A stretch of 64,000 nucleotides of DNA from positions 1-64,000 of the forward strand of contig NZ_JXYP01000006.1 of NCBI RefSeq assembly GCF_000964005.1. The letters run 5' to 3'. Made by a program: the position numbers and the translations under genes. The notes below the pieces were generated by a model, which saw only the letters and a program-made list of their open reading frames with translations, was not told the DNA's origin and ran no database searches. Source of the stretch: Williamsia herbipolensis. Its GTDB lineage: Bacteria; Actinomycetota; Actinomycetes; Mycobacteriales; Mycobacteriaceae. Shown here piece by piece: positions 16,581 to 59,711 of this stretch; the first letter of the stretch is position 1, and each line of letters opens with the position of its first letter.

Positions 16581-17199
16581 TGGGCAGAGCAGTGACCGCG
16601 CCGTGTCGGGGGAGGACGCGATCCTCGTGGGCATCCAGTCGGCGCTGGCCGACCGTCCCGGGGTGCTGCCGATCGCCCGCGGCATGTCGCACGTCGGTGA
16701 GCACGCGCTCGGATGGATGGCGGCGGCCGGGATCGGTGTCGTGGTGTCGCAGCTCCGTGGCGACGAGGTCGCAGCCGCGCGGTACGCCCAGGCCGGGGTC
16801 GGTGCCTTCGGTGCCCACGCGGCGTCGGTGATCATCAAGCGCATCGTGCGACGCCCGCGGCCCGCGCACCCCCGCATCGCCGTCGGGGTGTCGACCCCGA
16901 GCCGGTTGAGCTTCCCCTCGAGCCACGCGACCTCGACGACCGCTGCGGCGATCCTGCTCGGCCGGGCGGCCGGACTCCCGCCCGCGGCCCTGCCCGCGGT
17001 GCTGGTGGCACCCATGATGCTGTCGCGACTGGTGTTGGGTGTGCACTATCCGTCCGACGTCGCCGCCGGCGCCCTGGTGGGAGCCGCGTGTGCAGCCGCG
17101 ACCACGCGCAGTGACAGACTGGCTGCGCGCGTGACGCCACGGGTGTGGCGTGCCCTGAGCAGTTCTCGGGGACCGATGCGCGGCATGGGAGTGAGATGA
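16561..17199 (+). CDS. PAP2-family phosphatase, decaprenyl-phosphoryl-5-phosphoribose phosphatase candidate
   Basis: A 212-residue membrane protein. The three PAP2 motifs are present: KRIVRRPRP near residue 97, PSSHAT near 121, and SRLVLGVHYPSD near 157. Rv3807c, in the same position, is proposed to remove the 5-phosphate of decaprenyl-phosphoryl-phosphoribose made by UbiA, giving the DprE1 substrate. The GTG at 16561 is chosen because TGAGGAGAG sits at the right distance and the gene then overlaps glfT2 by only 20 bases. Its stop overlaps the ubiA start (ATGA). The order and coupling strongly suggest the same pathway; substrate is inferred. Confidence 0.88.
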
Positions 17200-45870: not shown

Positions 45871-48800
45871 GAGTCGTCCGATGTCACGACGCGGATGGAT
45901 CCGTCACGCGACCATCCCCAGCGGCTGCGGTCGCCGAGGGTGACCGTCGCGGTGGGCGCGTCCGGCGCCAGGGGTGCCAGGCGCTCGAGCGATCCCCAGT
46001 CGCGGAACCAGTCGTCGCGCAGGTAGGTCGGCACCGTGGTCGGTGTCGTGGTGCCCTCCGAGATCCCCAGCAGGCCACCGTCGTCGGAATCCATCCAGGT
46101 CTTCGACTGCGACAGTGCGGTGATGCGATCGGGCAGGATCCGCCACCGCGGGACGTCGGTGACGCCGTGGCGCGAGACGATCGGTTGCTGGCAGGGGAAC
46201 TGGCCGGCGACGGTGAAGTCGATCAGCGTGGGCGCCGAGGACCCGACGACCTCCTGCAGGGTCTGTAGCTGCGCCGCCCGCGGCGGGGTGATGGCGAGCC
46301 ACTGATCGGAGGTGAGGTTGTCGTCGTCGGCGACGATCCGCATGACCTGCGCGCGCGGCGGGATGGCCTCGGTCGGGATGCGGAGGTTGCGCCACGGGCG
46401 GTTCGGCGGTTCGGGTCCGGGGTCGATCGGCATGAACGGCGCGCCGATCTGGGTGAACTCGCCTGTCGGGGAGCTGATCCCGAACTGCACACGCAGCGAG
46501 CGACCGAACTCGCCGACACCGTCGACGTCGACCGAGGCGATCGCGCCGGCCGCGCTGATGACGACGAGCGGTGTGCTGCCGCGCTGCGGCAGGCGGTACC
46601 AGGACGTGGTCAACGAGGCCCGACCCGAGTCGTACCCGTAGCTGCCGAGCACCGGGGTGCGCGACGGGTCGAGACCGAACGGCAGCGCCGCGGTCGAGCC
46701 GTTGACGGTGCGGGGTCCGTTGCCGCCCAGGGTTCCCGGCAGTCCGCCGGCGACGGTGAAGGCGTTCTGGATGGTGCCGGCGACGTTCATCTGGCCGGGG
46801 CGTGACTGCGTCGGCTCCGGCGACAGGTCGGGCGCGACCCCGTTGGGGGTGAAGCCGACCGAACCGGTGCCGGCCAGCGCCGCCGATGCCGAACCGCCGT
46901 CGGCGGGCACGAGCGTGCCGGCGTTGGCGTCGCGTTCGACGAGGACGTCGTCGGCCATGGCACAGGTGTTCCCGCCCAGCGCTCGAAGGTTCGCACCGAC
47001 CACCGTGTACTCCGAACCGCGGGCGACGGCGGCCTTGGCGAACACCGCGAGCTCGGCCACCACCATGAGGATGGCGATAGCGGCGATGGGGGACGACGCC
47101 AGCACGAGGCGAGGACGGTCGGCCTTGGACGGCGCGTCCGACGGGGCCTCGATGTGGGCCGACGGGTCGGCGGATGCGGATTCGTGGACGACACCGCGGT
47201 TGGCGACGAAATCGAGTCGAAGGTGCAGCCACACCGCGCCCGCCGAGGCGAGTACGGCGAGCACCAACAGGATGGTCGAGACCTGGATCCCGGCCAGCAC
47301 CGGGGCGCGGTCGAACCACGAGATGCCGAAGTCGTACGCCCACGGCCACGCGTTCTTGCCGGCCATCGACGCCGCGAGCGCGAACAGCAGCCCGGCGACG
47401 AGGACCGCGAGATTGCGGGCCGAGCGGGCCGCGGACTGCGCGATGGCGACGGTCGCGACGGCGGCCAGCGCCGCGGCGATCCCGGCGAAGATGCCGAACT
47501 GGATGGTCCATTTGGTGGGCGCGAACACCCACAGCACGAGGGTGACACCGACGGCGCCGATCCCGCGCCACACCGGACCCGGATCGATCCCGCGGATCCG
47601 CTTGCGGCGCAACATGACCGCGAGCACCACGAACACCGATGCGAGCAACAGCAGCACCGGGACCCGTCGGGTGAGTGCGCCGTCGTCGGTGCTGACGGTG
47701 AGGAAGAAGTAGCGGAAGTACTCCTCGTGCCAGCTCAGCGAGGGGCCGACGGTGAAACGGATGCGCACCGCGTCGTAGACCGTGGCGAGGGTCTGGTCGC
47801 GGAACACCACGATGAGGGTGAACAGCCCGGCCGCCGCGACCGGCAGCACCAGGGCCGCGAGACCGTCGTCGCGGCGACGTCGCAGCACCACCTCGACCAT
47901 CGCACGCGCTCCGGCGACGAGGACCGCGACGGCGATCACGCCGTGCGGCGCCAGGGCGAGGGTGAGGCCGGCGGCTCCGGTGGCGAGCGCGGCGGGCAGC
48001 AGTCGGCGGGTGCCGATGGCCTGCTCGACACCCCACCAGGTGAGTAGCGAGCCGGCGACGATGATCGGTTCGCTGCGCAGGCCGCTGTCGAACGGCAGCC
48101 AGAAGGCGACGAACACCGCCGCGGCCGCCCACAGTGCCCAACCGCTGCGGCGGACCGCGGCGCCCAGACGGGGCAGCAGCACGCGGCTCAGCACGAACCA
48201 GGAGACGAGGGCGGCGACGAGCGCGGGAATGTGCATCCAGATGCCGGCTGTCGACACCGACGCCCAGTGACCCAGGAAGCTGTAGTACCAGTCGAACGGC
48301 GCCTCGGGGATGCCGAACCAGCGGTAGTAGTTGGAGAGGTACCCGGCGCCGTCGGCGACGCGACCCATCGTCAGCACGTACCCGTCGTCGGGGGTGCCTG
48401 CACCCAGGAACAGCCACACGACCAGCACCGCGGTGACGGCGGTGTCGGTGATGCGCGGGGCCAGCACGCGCCGCCACGAGCGCACGCCGATCCGGCGGTG
48501 GTGCCCGCCCAGCCAGTCGAGGCGCGCCAGCGCGACCAGCGCCAGCGCGATCGCCAGGATCCCGATGATCATGACCGCGAGCTTGATGGCCGAGGGCGAG
48601 CTGGCGTAGCGGTTGTCGATGCCGACGTCGACGCGCAGGCCCTGGGCGGCCGCGGCCTGCACCCGGGGCGTGGTCAGCGTGCTGAAGATCCCGTCGACCT
48701 GGGGACGCTTGTCGGGGGTGAGGGTGGTGGCCGGACCGAGGCCGACGAACTGTGCGCCCGGTCCGGTCGGCGAGGAGAACACGCGGATCGAGCGGCACTG

Positions 48801-52767: not shown

Positions 52768-53220
52768 ATGTCCCAGCGCAGCCGGACGGTCCTCCTCCTC
52801 AACGGCCCGAACCTCAACATGCTCGGCACCCGCCAGCCGGAGGTCTACGGACCGGCGACCCTTGCCGACGTCGTGGAGCTCGCAGAGCGCACGGCCGACG
52901 AGCTCGGGCTGACCCTCGTCGCCCGGCAGACCAACCACGAGGGCGAGATGCTCGACTGGATCCACGCCGCCCGCGGGACGGTCGACGCGATCGTCGTCAA
53001 TCCCGGAGGATGGACGCACACGTCGGTGGCCCTGCGTGATGCGCTGGTGATCCCCGAGGTGCCGATCGTCGAGGTCCACATCAGCAACGTCGCCGCCCGC
53101 GAGGACTTCCGACACCATTCCTACGTCTCGCCCATCGCGTCGGCGGTGATCGCGGGATGCGGTGTCTCGGGCTACGGATACGCGCTCCGACGGGTCGCGG
53201 AGCTGCTCGACACGCAGTGA
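52768..53220 (+). CDS. aroQ: Type II 3-dehydroquinate dehydratase
   Basis: A 150-residue enzyme of the shikimate pathway that dehydrates 3-dehydroquinate to 3-dehydroshikimate; active as a dodecamer in the cytoplasm. Diagnostic motifs: LLLNGPNLNMLGTRQPEVYG at the start (catalytic Tyr in VYG), NPGGWTHTSVALRDAL in the middle, and VEVHISNVAAREDFRHHSYVS with the catalytic His. Normally clustered with other aro genes; here it stands alone beside embC, which is unusual. ATG at 52768; an in-frame GTG lies three codons upstream. Confidence 0.95.
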   Translation: MSQRSRTVLLLNGPNLNMLGTRQPEVYGPATLADVVELAERTADELGLTLVARQTNHEGEMLDWIHAARGTVDAIVVNPGGWTHTSVALRDALVIPEVPIVEVHISNVAAREDFRHHSYVSPIASAVIAGCGVSGYGYALRRVAELLDTQ

Positions 53221-53478: not shown

Positions 53479-54396
53479 ATGTCGACCGCTGACATCGCCC
53501 GCCAGTCGCCCGGAACCGACGGTCCGGCCGACGAACGCGAGGTCACGGCGGTGTCGGCAGGCCGCGACGCCGGCCTCGAGGCGATCGAATCCGATCTCGT
53601 CCGCAGCCGTTTCCACGTGCTCTCGGCCATCGCGGCGTACTTCGCCCGGCCCCGCTGGTGGGTCGAGATCGCCCTCATCGGTGCCCTGTACGGCGTCTAC
53701 TCGCTGATCCGCAACAGCGTCGGCGAGGTCGCCGACACCGCCTTCCGCAACGCCGAGTCGCTCCTGTCGTTCGAGGACCGGTTCCACATCGCCCTCGAGC
53801 GTCCGCTCAACGAGTGGGTGCACCACACGCCGATCGTGGCCGACATCGTCGCCCTGCAGTACGCGACGCTGCACTTCATCGTCACCCCCGCGGTGCTCGT
53901 GTGGCTGTTCTTCCGCCGCAGCACCCACTACCGCGCGGTCAGCGCCATCCTCATCGTCACCACGGTGCTCGCGTTGATCGGCTTCTACTGGTTCCCCACG
54001 GCCCCGCCGCGGCTGCTGAGCCAGCAGGGTTTCGTCGACATCATGAGCCAGACGTCGTCGTGGGGGTGGTGGCCGGAATCGGGCACCCCGGGAAGCGACG
54101 CCATCTCCAACCAGTTCGCCGCGATGCCGTCGCTGCACTGCGCGTGGGCCGCCTGGTGCGGGCTGTCGCTGTTCTTCCTCGCGCGTCGCATGTGGGTGCG
54201 CATCCTCGGCCTCATCTACCCGTTCACCACGTTCTTCGTGGTGATGGGCTCGGGCAACCACTTCATCCTCGACGTCCTCGCCGGTCTGGCCACGCTCGCC
54301 GTCGGCGCCGCCGTCGTGTTCGGCATCAGGGCGTCGTGGCGACACCGCGTCCGTCGGCGACACGCTGACCGCGGCCGAATGAGACCGATTCGATGA
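53479..54396 (+). CDS. AUR1-like PAP2-superfamily membrane protein
   Basis: A 305-residue polytopic protein with about six membrane helices after a charged 50-residue N-terminus. The PAP2 C2 motif reads AAMPSLHCAWA (SLH) near residue 220 and the C3 motif GNHFILDVLAG near 255; an aromatic FYWFPTAPPRLL block lies before them. This spacing resembles inositol-phosphotransferase enzymes such as AUR1 rather than simple lipid phosphatases, so it may transfer a phospho-headgroup between lipids. ATG preceded by GGGAGG. The stop overlaps the next gene start by four bases (ATGA). Confidence 0.8.
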   Translation: MSTADIARQSPGTDGPADEREVTAVSAGRDAGLEAIESDLVRSRFHVLSAIAAYFARPRWWVEIALIGALYGVYSLIRNSVGEVADTAFRNAESLLSFEDRFHIALERPLNEWVHHTPIVADIVALQYATLHFIVTPAVLVWLFFRRSTHYRAVSAILIVTTVLALIGFYWFPTAPPRLLSQQGFVDIMSQTSSWGWWPESGTPGSDAISNQFAAMPSLHCAWAAWCGLSLFFLARRMWVRILGLIYPFTTFFVVMGSGNHFILDVLAGLATLAVGAAVVFGIRASWRHRVRRRHADRGRMRPIR

Positions 54397-55997
54397 TCAC
54401 CGGGGTGACCGGCCGGCAACGGAGCTGGCCGATGGCACTCCCGCTGGCGGTGGCCCTGGTCGCGACGGTCACCCTCTGGGCGCTGAGCCCGACCCTCGGA
54501 GACCTGCAGGCCGCGATCGCGCGCGAGGAGGCCGCGCGGTCGGGCGTCGGTCTCGGATACTGGTTCGGCTGGTACGGCGGGGTGTCGCCGGGCAGCTACT
54601 CCCTTCTCGTGCCGGCGTTGTCGGCGCTCACCGGCTCGTTGGCCCTGCTGGCGATCGCCACCCTGCTGATCGCGGTGATGGCGCACCCCCTGGCGCACGC
54701 GACGGTCGGCGTCGGTGCGGGCAGCCGGGCGGTGCACCCGACGATGCTGACGTGGGCCATCGTGGTCGCCGCCGTGCTCAACATGATGTCGGGTCGTGTG
54801 GCGTTCTCCGTCGGTGCCGCGTTCGCGCTGTTCGCCGTGCTGTTGCTGCAACGTGGGACGACCACCCTCGCCGCGGTGGTGTTGGTCGTCTCCGGTCTCG
54901 CCAGTCCGCTGGCACCCGCGTTCGTGGGGTTGGCGGCCGTGCCGTTCCTGCTCGGTGGCGGCCATCGGTCCCGGACGGTCTGGAGTGTGCTGATCGGCTC
55001 CGGTCTGGGCGTGGTGGTGCCGTTCGCACTCTTCGGGGCGCCCGGCGCCCAGGGCTTCCCGTGGACGACGCTGGTGTGGACGATCCTCATCGGCCTGGGT
55101 GCGGGGTACGCGATCACCGAGGCGCCGCAGCGCTGGATCGCGCCGCTGGCGATGATCACCGCGATCGTGGTGTTCGCCGTCCCCAACGGGATCGGGTCGA
55201 ACCTGAGTCGCTTCTTCTGTCTCGTGGTCCCCTGTCTCATCCTGTGGTTCTCGCGCCGCGCCCTGCCGATCCTGCTCGTCACCCTTCTGCCCGCGGTCAG
55301 TTACGCGGGGTTCGTCGCCGTGGCCGATCAGGTCGCGGTCGCCGATGCCGGTGACACCGAGAAGAACTACGAGCCCCTGCGCCTGGCCCTGCTGCGCGGG
55401 CCCGGCCTGGTGAACCACCGCGTGGAGCTGATCGATGCGGGTACCCACGCCGGATCACACGAACTGGGGTCACTGGTGAAGCTGGCGCGAGGGTGGGAGA
55501 ACCAGTCCGATTCGCGGTTCAACCCGATCTTCTACGAGAAGGATGCGCTCACCCCGCTGTCGTACCGACGGTGGCTGAACGAGAACGCGGTGTCGTGGGT
55601 CGCCGTCTCCGACGAGCCGCTTCGCCAGGCGAGATCCGAAGCGGCACTGGTCAATGCGGGACTGCCGTATCTCACGCGCGAGTGGGGCAACGACGAGTGG
55701 ACGCTCTACCGGGTGGCTAATCCGGGATCGGTCGTGGCGCCGCCGTTGTCACTGGTGACCGAGACCCCCGCACAGATGGTGGTCGAGATCCCCGACACCG
55801 GAACACATCCCATCCAGATCCGCCCCAACCGTTACCTGGTCGCGCGTGACGTCGACGATCCGACGGTGAGTGCGTGTATCGATCAGACCCAGCAGGGGTG
55901 GATCACCGTGCGGGCCCCGCAGCCGGGCACCTATCGGCTCGAGGGGCCGCTGTCGGTGCGCGGCGTGCTGTCCGAGCAGTCGCCGAGCTGTACCTGA
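54393..55997 (+). CDS. Polytopic membrane protein with C-terminal soluble domain, GT-C-like, unassigned
   Basis: A 534-residue protein: about nine membrane helices in residues 10-320, then a 210-residue outer domain with a beta-rich end (NRYLVARDVDD..., GWITVRAPQPGTYRLEG). The general plan matches GT-C glycosyltransferases, and the first outer loop contains a conserved-looking GYWFGWYGGVSPGSYS patch, but I see no clear Asp/Glu catalytic motif and do not recognise the family. Translationally coupled to the PAP2 gene by an ATGA overlap. Function unknown; a lipid-sugar or headgroup-transfer partner of the PAP2 protein is an inference. Confidence 0.7.
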   Translation: MITGVTGRQRSWPMALPLAVALVATVTLWALSPTLGDLQAAIAREEAARSGVGLGYWFGWYGGVSPGSYSLLVPALSALTGSLALLAIATLLIAVMAHPLAHATVGVGAGSRAVHPTMLTWAIVVAAVLNMMSGRVAFSVGAAFALFAVLLLQRGTTTLAAVVLVVSGLASPLAPAFVGLAAVPFLLGGGHRSRTVWSVLIGSGLGVVVPFALFGAPGAQGFPWTTLVWTILIGLGAGYAITEAPQRWIAPLAMITAIVVFAVPNGIGSNLSRFFCLVVPCLILWFSRRALPILLVTLLPAVSYAGFVAVADQVAVADAGDTEKNYEPLRLALLRGPGLVNHRVELIDAGTHAGSHELGSLVKLARGWENQSDSRFNPIFYEKDALTPLSYRRWLNENAVSWVAVSDEPLRQARSEAALVNAGLPYLTREWGNDEWTLYRVANPGSVVAPPLSLVTETPAQMVVEIPDTGTHPIQIRPNRYLVARDVDDPTVSACIDQTQQGWITVRAPQPGTYRLEGPLSVRGVLSEQSPSCT

Positions 55998-56111
55998 TCG
56001 CAACAGGCGTTGACACCGCGCCCTGCGCAGGAGGACACTCGATGGGTACGTGTGACGGCAGACACACCTATCGGTGGTCACCGTGCCCGGCACCGACAGC
56101 GGAGGTTCCCC

Positions 56112-56972
56112 ATGGCGACCGACATCCGGGCGCGCAGGATCAGGTTCTCCTACCCCGAGGGATCCCTCGAGCGGCACTACGTCGCCGGGGACCTCGTGAT
56201 GAGCCACATCGTGTCGATGCTCTCGGCCGTGTTCCCCGAGGGTGAGGACTTCTTCGTCCGGTCGGTGAAGCACTACCGCGACCAGGTCACCGATCCCGTG
56301 CTCAGCAAGCAGATCGCCGGGTTCATCGGCCAGGAGGTCACCCACGGCCGCGAGCACCGCGAGATCAACGAGCGACTCGGCGCCATGGGGTACCCGACGA
56401 TGGCGTGCGACAAGCACACCAAACGCGCGCTGGCGCGGATGTTCCGGCGATTGCCCCACCGTTTGTCCCTGGCGATCACCGCGGCACTCGAGCACTACAC
56501 CGCGACGCTGGCGTCGCTGCTGCTCACCGAACCGCGGGCGCGCGCACTCATCTCGTCGGAGCAGGTGCGGGCGCTGTTGATGTGGCACGCCTACGAGGAG
56601 GTCGAGCACAAGGCCGTCGCGTTCGACGTCTACCGGTACGTGGGCGGGACCGAGCGGATGCGCATCGCCACCATGCGTGTGGTCCACGTGGTGTTCGTCC
56701 TGAACACCATCGTGTGGACGATGGTGTCGATGGCGCGTGATCGCGCCACCTACAACCCGCGACGACTGTTCGCGAGTCTTGCTGCGCTGCGCGCCAATCC
56801 GTGGCTGGGACGCGAGGTGCTCGATGAATTGCGCACCTACACCCGGCGCGGCTTCCACCCCGACGACAACCCCACCGAGTACCTGCTCGAGGAGTGGCGG
56901 GCCGAGTTGTTCGGCGACAGCGGCGTGTTGGCCGACAACCTCGCGGCCGGCCGGGGCCACCGCACGAACTGA
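56112..56972 (+). CDS. PF10118-type metal-dependent hydrolase
   Basis: A 286-residue soluble helical protein. Conserved carboxylate/His motifs: GQEVTHGREH near residue 77-86, EHYTA near 125, and HAYEEVEHKAVAFD near 160-175, which look like a di-metal site. The family is annotated as predicted metal-dependent hydrolase; no reaction is known to me. The ATG at 56112 has GGAGG upstream; in-frame starts further upstream lack this. The 114-bp upstream gap contains TTGACA at 56010-56015 and GACACT 18 bp later as a weak promoter. Ends four bases from the MBL gene stop, convergently. Confidence 0.75.
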   Translation: MATDIRARRIRFSYPEGSLERHYVAGDLVMSHIVSMLSAVFPEGEDFFVRSVKHYRDQVTDPVLSKQIAGFIGQEVTHGREHREINERLGAMGYPTMACDKHTKRALARMFRRLPHRLSLAITAALEHYTATLASLLLTEPRARALISSEQVRALLMWHAYEEVEHKAVAFDVYRYVGGTERMRIATMRVVHVVFVLNTIVWTMVSMARDRATYNPRRLFASLAALRANPWLGREVLDELRTYTRRGFHPDDNPTEYLLEEWRAELFGDSGVLADNLAAGRGHRTN

Positions 56973-56976
56973 GGCG

Positions 56977-57756
56977 TCAGCCCCGCAGGGCCGTTGCCAC
57001 CGCGTCGGACACCGACCCGCGGTGGACCTCACCGTGGCCGGGGAAGAGGAACTCCACGGCCGCACCCGACAGCCGTTCCCGCTCGGCCAACGCGCGCAGG
57101 GCCTCCCGGTTCGCGGCCTCGTCGTGGTGGAACACCGGGTGGATGCACTGCGGCCCCACGTGGGCGGTGATGCCGTGTCCGGTCACCAACGCGTCACCCG
57201 ACACCAGCACCCGGCCACCGGCCACGAGGTAGGCGCTGTGGCCGTCGGTGTGGCCGTGCGCCGACCACGGCACCGGACGCCCCGGCAGGTCCAGCGACCC
57301 GTCGGCGGAGGTGGCGAACGGCTCGGCGTTGGGGATGCCGGTGGTGTCGAGACCGCCGAGGGCGACGATCTCGGCCATCCACCGCAGCACGCGTGGCTTG
57401 TAGGCGAGCTTCGCCAGCGATTTCGGTGTCGCCTGCTGCAGGTGTTCGCGGCGCGCGTGGGACACCTCGACCGGGTCGAGGTGGACCGGGAAGGCGTAGC
57501 GGTTCGCGAGACGACTGAGGCCGCCGATGTGGTCGACGTGGGCGTGGGTGACGAGTGCGGCGCGGATGTCGCCGGGCTGCGCACCGATCTCGCGCACCGA
57601 GGCGATCACGTCGTCGACCTGCTTGGGGTAGCCGCCGTCGATGAGGGTGACACCCGAATCGTCGCGCAGCAGAACCCAGTTGACGTGTTCGGTGTGGATG
57701 AGATGCGCGCTTCCGCCACTCTCGTTCTCGACGGTCGTGATCGTGAAGTGACTCAT
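56977..57756 (-). CDS. Metallo-beta-lactamase-fold hydrolase coupled to aftA
   Basis: A 259-residue MBL-fold protein. Metal motif THAHVDHIGG near residue 70, GHTDGH near 165 and the second-site Asp in VSGDALV just after, then FPGHGEV near 240. The reaction is unknown; many relatives are thioesterases or lactonases. Its ATG overlaps the aftA stop by four bases, so it is the last gene of dprE1-dprE2-aftA. In M. tuberculosis aftA is followed directly by embC, so this gene takes the place next to aftA here. Confidence 0.82.
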   Translation of the reverse strand: MSHFTITTVENESGGSAHLIHTEHVNWVLLRDDSGVTLIDGGYPKQVDDVIASVREIGAQPGDIRAALVTHAHVDHIGGLSRLANRYAFPVHLDPVEVSHARREHLQQATPKSLAKLAYKPRVLRWMAEIVALGGLDTTGIPNAEPFATSADGSLDLPGRPVPWSAHGHTDGHSAYLVAGGRVLVSGDALVTGHGITAHVGPQCIHPVFHHDEAANREALRALAERERLSGAAVEFLFPGHGEVHRGSVSDAVATALRG

Positions 57757-59711
57757 CTGCGCACCACCAGGACGAAGGGACCGACCTCGGTCACGGTGAA
57801 CCGGGGATCGTCGAACAGGGCCGAACCGAAGGCGACCGTGTACCGCCGCACGTTGGGGTCGTTCGGGTAGACGTCGGTGGCCAGGCGCAGAGCATATCCG
57901 TCGGCGCTGTAGCGGAACAGGAACACCTGCGGCGCGCGCCAGGGCGAGGTGTCGAGGGCGCGGATCAGCTCGTCGGGGGTCTGCAGGGTCGCCCACCGCT
58001 CGATCGCGGCGGCGCGTTTGTCGAACTCTGCCAGGGGGTTCGCGTAATGCGAGGTCAGTCCCTGGAAGCCGTAGTAGGGGTAGATCGACAGGAACCCGTA
58101 GTCGGCGGTGAGGACGATCGTCTCGTCGCGCGGACGTCCCGTCTGCTGCCGGATGAGCGTGTCGATCTGCGGGAAGTACGACTGCGCGCCGGGCGGGCGC
58201 TTGTCGGCGCGGTCACCGTTGCCGTCGGTGTCGGTGTAGGCGGTCGTGATCTCCGAACTCAGGTGATCGGGGATGTTCTGCGAAACCCCCACCGCGGCAA
58301 CGACCGCCGCGACCACCACCAGGAAGCGGATGTCGCCGAACCGTCTCACGGCCGCCCGCGCGATCTCGGCGATGCCGAGAACCCCCGCGGCCGAGAGGAT
58401 CACCGCGAGCAGCGGTTCGAGCCGGAACGACAGCAGTGTGGTCCCCATGGCCGTCAGCGCCATCGACAACAGGCAGAACAGGTAGATCGCGATCACGACG
58501 ATCCCGAGTGCGAGCGACACCGTGCGCTGCCGGTTGCGCAGCAGCAACCACAGCAGGCCGATCATGCACAGCACACCGACCAACGTCAGGTGCAGCATCG
58601 GTGTGGGCAGCTGTGCCCCGCTCGAGGGCAGGTAGTGCTCGGCGGTCCCGCCGCTGGCCGGCGAATTACGCAGCCGTGCCAGGAGATACGGAGCCCACAC
58701 GATCAACGCGATCAGCCCGGACACCACGCCCATGCCGATCAGCCGCGCCGCGTGTACGCCGAGTACCCGCAGGCGTCGACGCCGGAGGGCGCCGGGGTCG
58801 GTGGCCCGGTTGGCGGTCGCGCGGATCGCGTCGACGGCGAGGTAGAGGGCCATCAGCACCGCCGACAGCGCGAACAACCCGGCGAACAGTGTGTAGAAGG
58901 TGGCGCTGACGCCGATGAAGATCCCGCCGGCGAGCAGGGCCGCGCGTCGACCGGACCGCAGCGCGTGGAACACCGTGATCATCATCGGCGCACCGACGAG
59001 GATCAGCACGGCGGCATAGGGTTCCGGGCCCGCGTACATGATCGTCACCGCGGTCGTCGCCAGGGTGATCGCGATCGCGCGGTCGGTGCGGATCATGCGG
59101 GTCCACAGCGCCATCGCCACGGCGGCGGCCACGGCGATCGACAGGATCGCCCACGGCTTGAATGCCTCCCATGCGGGCTGATCGACGAGGTTCGCGTACC
59201 GACCTCCGAGCCAGAACCACCCGGCCGGGTAATACGGTGCGAGGTCGATGTAGGTCATGTCGGCCAGGCCGTGGGTGTCGGCGAGGCGCGTGAGGTACTC
59301 GGTGCGGAACTGCTGATCGACCGAGATCCCGAACAGGTAGAGCTTGGTGGCACCCAGTGGCATCGCGAGGGTGACCGTCGCGAACGCCGAGATGCCCACC
59401 CAGCTCAGCGGTGTCACCCACCGGGTGAGTGCACCCATCCGTGAGGCCACCACCGCGACGAGCAGGACCGCGATCGCCACGCACTGACCGACGGTGGTGA
59501 GCGCGCCGGTGACGTTCGAGGAGTTGAACGCCGGCCACTGCACCTGACCGATGGCGAACAGTCCGATCGCCCCGACCACCGCCGCGACCACCGCGGCCGC
59601 GACGATCGTCGCGGTGTCGACGCCGTACCGACGCAGGCCACGGTGTCCGGCGGGCGCGGGCGACGGGTGCGGCGACTCGGCCGTCGACGCGTCGGTGGTT
59701 GCGGCGCTCAC
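57753..59711 (-). CDS. aftA: Galactan 5-O-arabinofuranosyltransferase AftA
   Basis: A 652-residue GT-C membrane enzyme that attaches the first arabinofuranose to the galactan chain, priming arabinan. After a 30-residue cytoplasmic tail, about eleven membrane helices precede a soluble outer domain from residue ~470. The first outer loop carries the AftA hallmark: VDQQFRTEYLTRLADTHG and DLAPYYPAGWFWLGGR near 130-170. Length matches Rv3792 (643). ATG seven bases after the dprE2 stop; overlaps the MBL gene start. Confidence 0.94.
   Translation of the reverse strand: MSAATTDASTAESPHPSPAPAGHRGLRRYGVDTATIVAAAVVAAVVGAIGLFAIGQVQWPAFNSSNVTGALTTVGQCVAIAVLLVAVVASRMGALTRWVTPLSWVGISAFATVTLAMPLGATKLYLFGISVDQQFRTEYLTRLADTHGLADMTYIDLAPYYPAGWFWLGGRYANLVDQPAWEAFKPWAILSIAVAAAVAMALWTRMIRTDRAIAITLATTAVTIMYAGPEPYAAVLILVGAPMMITVFHALRSGRRAALLAGGIFIGVSATFYTLFAGLFALSAVLMALYLAVDAIRATANRATDPGALRRRRLRVLGVHAARLIGMGVVSGLIALIVWAPYLLARLRNSPASGGTAEHYLPSSGAQLPTPMLHLTLVGVLCMIGLLWLLLRNRQRTVSLALGIVVIAIYLFCLLSMALTAMGTTLLSFRLEPLLAVILSAAGVLGIAEIARAAVRRFGDIRFLVVVAAVVAAVGVSQNIPDHLSSEITTAYTDTDGNGDRADKRPPGAQSYFPQIDTLIRQQTGRPRDETIVLTADYGFLSIYPYYGFQGLTSHYANPLAEFDKRAAAIERWATLQTPDELIRALDTSPWRAPQVFLFRYSADGYALRLATDVYPNDPNVRRYTVAFGSALFDDPRFTVTEVGPFVLVVRR

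Follow-up and report, generated by a model that had tools for sequence, protein, structure and literature searches.

A conserved actinobacterial gene pair encoding an AUR1-like PAP2 protein and a predicted GT-C-fold glycosyltransferase of an unnamed family

The gene pair and its neighbours in Williamsia herbipolensis

In the present study, two overlapping genes of Williamsia herbipolensis (genome size 4.74 Mb) were analysed within a window of 64,000 nucleotides, the whole stretch of DNA under study. The following features were assigned.

52768..53220, forward strand: aroQ, type II dehydroquinase, the upstream neighbour, outside the system (PF01220, E 1.1e-56)
53479..54396, forward strand: AUR1-like PAP2_3 membrane phosphatase/phosphotransferase, 305 residues, predicted (ATG start, TGA stop; PF14378, E 1.6e-55)
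54393..54396, forward strand: ATGA overlap of the PAP2 stop and the GT-C start (from the sequence; NTGA in 21/24 adjacent pairs)
54393..55997, forward strand: GT-C-fold glycosyltransferase, predicted, of an unnamed family, 534 residues (ATG start; structure model and fold matches)
56094..56972, forward strand: predicted metal-dependent hydrolase, the downstream gene (PF10118, E 1.3e-77)
57753..59711, reverse strand: aftA, arabinofuranosyltransferase, outside the system (PF12250, 517 bits)

The four-base overlap described in the first-pass annotation was found at the same position, and the ATGA motif suggests that the two genes are likely translationally coupled. The third-position GC content is 0.91 in the PAP2 gene and 0.88 in the GT-C gene, and these values, together with conservation across genera, suggest that both open reading frames are real genes. 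The pair had been placed between arabinan genes, and this placement holds: aroQ and the emb genes (two recognized as Emb by Pfam and a third by reading) lie on the left, and the PF10118 gene, a metallo-beta-lactamase gene, aftA and DprE2/DprE1-type genes lie on the right, so that aroQ on one side and the PF10118 and metallo-beta-lactamase genes on the other separate the pair from the arabinan genes. The PF10118 gene follows the GT-C gene on the same strand. An open reading frame at 45904-48798, considered as an emb gene, was rejected as spurious. A second, shorter PAP2 at about 16891-17097 of the window is a candidate for the usual arabinan-pathway phosphatase. Elsewhere in the genome, two further PAP2_3 genes were observed (C9:61795-62442 and C15:61405-62070; loci L138 and L139), and the gene on C15 lies divergently beside a gene reading like phosphomannomutase.

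Folds and conserved residues of the two proteins

The PAP2 protein matches PF14378 (PAP2_3) in Pfam at 188 bits against a cut-off of 27. Across an alignment of 46 sequences, the catalytic triad is almost fully conserved, with H220 present in 46/46 and H261 and D265 in 45/46 with one gap, and the stretch P176-P177-R178 is invariant. The structure model (pLDDT 85.7) is closest to the yeast enzyme AUR1 among solved folds (Foldseek E 1.9e-4; Z 17.9, rmsd 3.8, 224 aligned), followed by LpxE (Z 14.1, rmsd 2.9, 164 aligned) and, lower still, PgpB (8bm3; Z 10.6, rmsd 3.4, 159 aligned). When the family profile was compared with PDB sequences, only AUR1 entries matched, at E about 0.02, over a region covering the PP, PSLH and HxxxD motifs. 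Thus, the nearest fold and the retained H-H-D triad bear out the AUR1-like character read from the sequence in the first-pass annotation. The NCBIfam model for phosphoinositol dihydroceramide synthase gave 34.1 bits, far below its cut-off of 480, and for this reason no substrate is assigned to the PAP2 protein. Moreover, PAP2 enzymes are catalytically versatile, and the likeness to AUR1 is therefore no proof of transfer.

Sequence searches with the 534-residue protein gave no usable match in Pfam, NCBIfam or the PDB. A structure model built from an alignment of 49 relatives, reaching down to about 25% identity, was of high confidence (pLDDT 93.4, pTM 0.92), and places a first membrane helix at residues 12-31, a short amphipathic helix at 36-49 and about ten more membrane helices up to residue 317, followed by an outer alpha/beta domain at about 320-445 and a beta-sandwich at about 448-522, which resembles fucosidase accessory domains (2wvs; Z 6.2, rmsd 3.3, 70 aligned). 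The large outer domain proposed earlier is thus present in the model, spanning roughly 200 residues, and the count of nine helices is replaced by about 11. Foldseek returned AftD first (E 9.7e-5), then ArnT and subunits of oligosaccharyltransferase (OST). In a structural second look, all matches down to Z 6.5 were GT-C enzymes or domains, and the lower rows shown were matches to the beta-sandwich only; the model aligned with OST (8age; Z 12.8, rmsd 5.2, 411 aligned), AftD (6wby; Z 12.7, rmsd 6.2, 476 aligned) and AftA (8if8; Z 12.0, rmsd 6.6, 407 aligned). The comparison with GT-C enzymes suggested at the outset thus recovered a GT-C fold, and neither a transporter nor another known family, either of which would have spoken against the first reading, came up as a match. 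According to a study of AftB, all GT-CA enzymes carry an essential aspartate at the tip of JM helix 1 (PMC12041299). Residue D37 opens the amphipathic helix after the first membrane helix and is invariant in 49/49 relatives; given this invariance and position, D37 is predicted to be catalytic. Residues W60, G63, Y69, S70, R135, N270, R273, R343, E345 and R366 are also invariant in this alignment.

The likeness in fold is not accompanied by a detectable family relationship. The AftD family PF11847 gave no Pfam match to the protein at E 1, and profile comparison with AftD indicated no relation (hhalign probability 1.5), nor did comparison with MptB-like (probability 3.4) and GT87-like (0.8) alignments, both of which were small. 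None of the NCBIfam models of the MptB and GT87 families matched the 534-residue family, and the Emb and AftA Pfam models matched neither the protein nor eight relatives while matching the neighbouring genes strongly. A resemblance in the first loop had pointed to PF10131 (PTPS_related), but this model matched in no genome searched, not even in the controls, and its silence carries no weight here. A weak match within the same genome (C49, E 6.8e-5) was considered as a relative and set aside as a separate, weakly GT87-like protein that provides no evidence. On the basis of the model, the 534-residue protein is predicted to be a GT-CA-type membrane glycosyltransferase. Since the fold is GT-C and no profile relation to AftD, MptB-like or GT87-like proteins was detected, it is regarded as a separate GT-C family, which is unnamed in the databases searched and may be named in others.

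Distribution and genomic arrangements of the two families

The 534-residue family is present in 21 of 201 genomes of the host's family, and the PAP2 gene lies directly upstream of the GT-C gene in all loci fetched from these 21 genomes. In near relatives aroQ is kept adjoining the pair, usually before the PAP2 gene, and aftA follows the pair in many. A close PAP2 copy, defined as E below 1e-90 in a whole-genome search with the PAP2 profile, was observed in 21/21 genomes with the GT-C gene vs 4/180 without it (Fisher p 8e-25, kinship ignored), a strong co-occurrence of the kind anticipated in the first-pass annotation. A class-wide sample contained the 534-residue family in 93/394 genomes, with nearly all of a Streptomyces-like genus (g49) among them; a comparable PAP2 (E 1e-45) was present in 77/93 genomes with the GT-C gene vs 49/301 without it, kinship again being ignored. 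Because the GT-C gene is absent from 49/126 genomes having such a PAP2, the latter appears to have other roles too. The 534-residue family gave no match in the sampled Mycobacterium-like genomes. An NTGA overlap of exactly four bases is retained in 21 of the 24 adjacent pairs, which come from Williamsia, Gordonia, Jongsikchunia and Geodermatophilaceae. The pair is tandem-duplicated in Trujillonella and one Blastococcus (Geodermatophilaceae), and the PAP2 and GT-C trees split into the same major groups. Thus, the pair is co-inherited in several bacterial lineages, and it is probable that the two proteins share a task in making or modifying one cell-surface lipid or glycan. Two irregular records were encountered. 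In one genome (G139; L021, L022), the GT-C gene lies in two overlapping frames, owing to a frameshift or a sequencing error. In addition, a record titled Kitasatospora arboriphila NRRL B-24581 (L035) carries a locus almost that of Williamsia muralis, and is probably mislabelled or contaminated.

The arabinan gene setting holds only near Williamsia. Three GT-C loci of Corynebacterium are without a PAP2 neighbour; in these genomes the close PAP2 (E 1e-112 to 1e-123) lies at another site, where it adjoins a PnuC-type gene. The GT-C gene itself lies outside the arabinan setting in Corynebacterium, as it does in Gordonia amarae. The GT-C and PAP2 genes are apart in most Streptomyces and related genomes. 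In many actinobacteria, the neighbours of the GT-C gene are glnE, a carboxypeptidase-like gene or an MptB-like gene, the last adjoining distant members of the family. As the family is widespread with such neighbours, its general substrate is unlikely to be arabinan, and the arabinan role hinted at by the first reading of the locus is weakened. Several distant members lie directly after glnE in the order glnA-glnE-GT-C (L084 4280-8727, L079 3954-8779, L125 and L111), and in one Streptomyces locus (L172) a PAP2_3 gene sits instead beside a gene reading like glnE. In one further family (f16), a PAP2_3 gene is convergent with or close to the GT-C gene, in some cases downstream of glnE.

Fusions of PAP2_3 to other domains were also observed. 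In five Streptomyces genomes, a second GT-C copy is convergent with a gene for a protein of about 700 residues (L184, L185, L186, L188 and L192). The two of these proteins that were scanned (L185 and L192) are GT87-PAP2_3 fusions, with about 122 bits for GT87 and 167-173 bits for PAP2_3, and the PimE model recognizes their GT87 half (E about 1e-21). A GT87-like gene adjoins those PAP2 relatives of Gordonia that have no GT-C partner. No paper on the GT-C/PAP2 pair or on a GT87-PAP2 combination was found in the literature. In other loci, PAP2_3 is fused to a domain that by eye resembles a wax-ester/diacylglycerol acyltransferase (L133 1211-3292, L134 1278-3395, L135 1259-3406 and L136 1204-3285). 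A PAP2-DedA pair near a Streptomyces plasmid copy was considered as a sign of carrier recycling and dismissed, being a single case with a PAP2 outside the present profile.

Proposed role of the pair and comparison with known systems

Herein, we propose that the two proteins form a pair acting in sequence at the outer face of the membrane on one envelope lipid or lipoglycan, and we regard this reading as likely. The proposal draws on the folds, the conserved active-site residues, the overlap of the two genes and their co-inheritance, all computed in the present study. The recurrence of PAP2_3 beside GT-C or GT87 genes in family f16, Streptomyces and Gordonia also speaks in its favour. The donor of the GT-C protein would probably be a polyprenyl-phosphate sugar, used on the outer side of the cytoplasmic membrane; D37 is the predicted catalytic residue, and the C-terminal outer domain would hold or position the acceptor. 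Since the family adjoins MptB-like genes and is frequent in lineages without the arabinan setting, mannose or another hexose would be a likelier donor sugar than arabinose. The PAP2 protein, through its H-H-D site, would break or move a lipid-linked phosphate group, possibly a headgroup of the phosphoinositol type, and by analogy with AUR1 it may transfer this group and not merely hydrolyse it. Both proteins would in turn modify one substrate, in an order that we can only infer. A specific scheme, in which the PAP2 protein moves a (mannosylated) phosphoinositol headgroup from a phosphatidylinositol-type lipid to another lipid or lipoglycan and the GT-C protein extends or caps the product, is offered as a tentative possibility; this would give actinobacteria an outer-face route of headgroup transfer, and the GT87-PAP2_3 fusions would represent its parallel version.

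Several other explanations were weighed. The GT-C protein might resemble OST in using a polyprenyl-diphosphate-linked donor, with the PAP2 protein converting the released polyprenyl diphosphate into the monophosphate. PAP2 proteins such as PgpB are C55-PP phosphatases, and PgpB is among the lower fold matches of the PAP2 protein (8bm3, Z 10.6); moreover, the structural matches of the 534-residue model include OST/STT3 and AglB near the top, and residues 320-442 match the C-terminal globular domain of AglB (3vu0; Z 9.3, rmsd 2.8, 113 aligned). However, GT-C enzymes with monophosphate donors (ArnT, AftA and ALG12) match the same region, and AUR1 (Z 17.9) outranks PgpB among the fold matches of the PAP2 protein, so that such recycling of the carrier seems unlikely. 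It is very unlikely that the PAP2 protein is a phosphatidate-type phosphatase making diacylglycerol, which the GT-C protein would glycosylate or simply adjoin: the fusions to an acyltransferase-like domain are suggestive of such a role, but the fused PAP2 domains match much less closely (best E about 1e-40) than those of the pair do (E below 1e-90), and the fusion found beside a GT-C gene is to GT87 and not to an acyltransferase.

A part in arabinan synthesis, with the GT-C protein as another arabinofuranosyltransferase and the PAP2 protein acting on decaprenyl-phospho-pentose intermediates, would be consistent with the position of the pair between the emb and aftA-dprE2-dprE1 genes, kept in near relatives, and with the presence of AftD and AftA among the fold matches. 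Despite this, we consider such a part highly improbable, as the GT-C family extends, beyond this setting, to almost every Streptomyces sampled and to other lineages, is placed elsewhere in Corynebacterium and Gordonia amarae, and has no profile similarity to AftD, and the other PAP2 at about 16891-17097 is itself a candidate pathway phosphatase. Finally, Z values of about 12 may be common to helical membrane proteins, and the 534-residue protein could on that ground be a transporter, a scaffold or an inactive relative with a GT-C-like shape; with top matches that are consistently GT-C, one alignment spanning residues 10-526 and the expected aspartate (D37) invariant, the chance of this appears extremely small.

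Thus, a fold, a residue predicted to be catalytic and a partner that is conserved can be assigned to a family lacking a Pfam or NCBIfam model and scattered through actinobacteria, and its function therefore becomes directly testable. The assignment of the unnamed family and of its conserved partner is well supported, and the biochemical role is a prediction. If the PAP2 protein truly transfers headgroups, this would be a remodelling of lipids on the outer side of actinobacterial membranes, a step with no described enzyme to our knowledge. The LAM of some mycobacteria carries phosphoinositol caps (PMC3229680), and despite this the pair was not found in the sampled Mycobacterium-like genomes.

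The proposed pair shares features with several known systems. The model aligns over nearly its whole length with AftD (PF11847; 6w98, 6wby), which has a GT-C fold and outer domains; however, AftD is far larger, is without a profile-level sequence relation to the 534-residue protein, and is separately encoded in the same genome. STT3/AglB and ArnT, which are GT-CA enzymes, show the same membrane fold and the same position of the outer alpha/beta domain, but have only about 9-12% identity to the 534-residue protein and share no family model with it. Phosphoinositol sphingolipids are the products of AUR1, the inositol phosphorylceramide synthase, and of BT_1522, its counterpart in bacteria (PMC9246714). 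AUR1 (9vj4, 9ivc) is the nearest fold to the PAP2 protein, with the H-H-D triad and the PP/PSLH/HxxxD pattern in common, although the identity is about 17% and the match to the NCBIfam model of the bacterial enzyme is weak. The three-component pentofuranose systems with GT136 (PMC11127046) resemble the pair in having an outer-face GT-C, whose outer domain is of the carbohydrate-binding type, and a phosphatase in the pathway. In those systems, the donor is acted on by a HAD-type phosphatase domain (or by Rv3807c in mycobacteria), and neither a prenyl-phosphoribose synthase nor a flippase was recognized directly beside the present pair. The Streptomyces fusions of PimE-like GT87 to PAP2_3 (L185, L192) have a GT87 half without detectable sequence relation to the 534-residue protein, yet they likewise combine a glycosyltransferase with PAP2_3 and adjoin a second GT-C copy.
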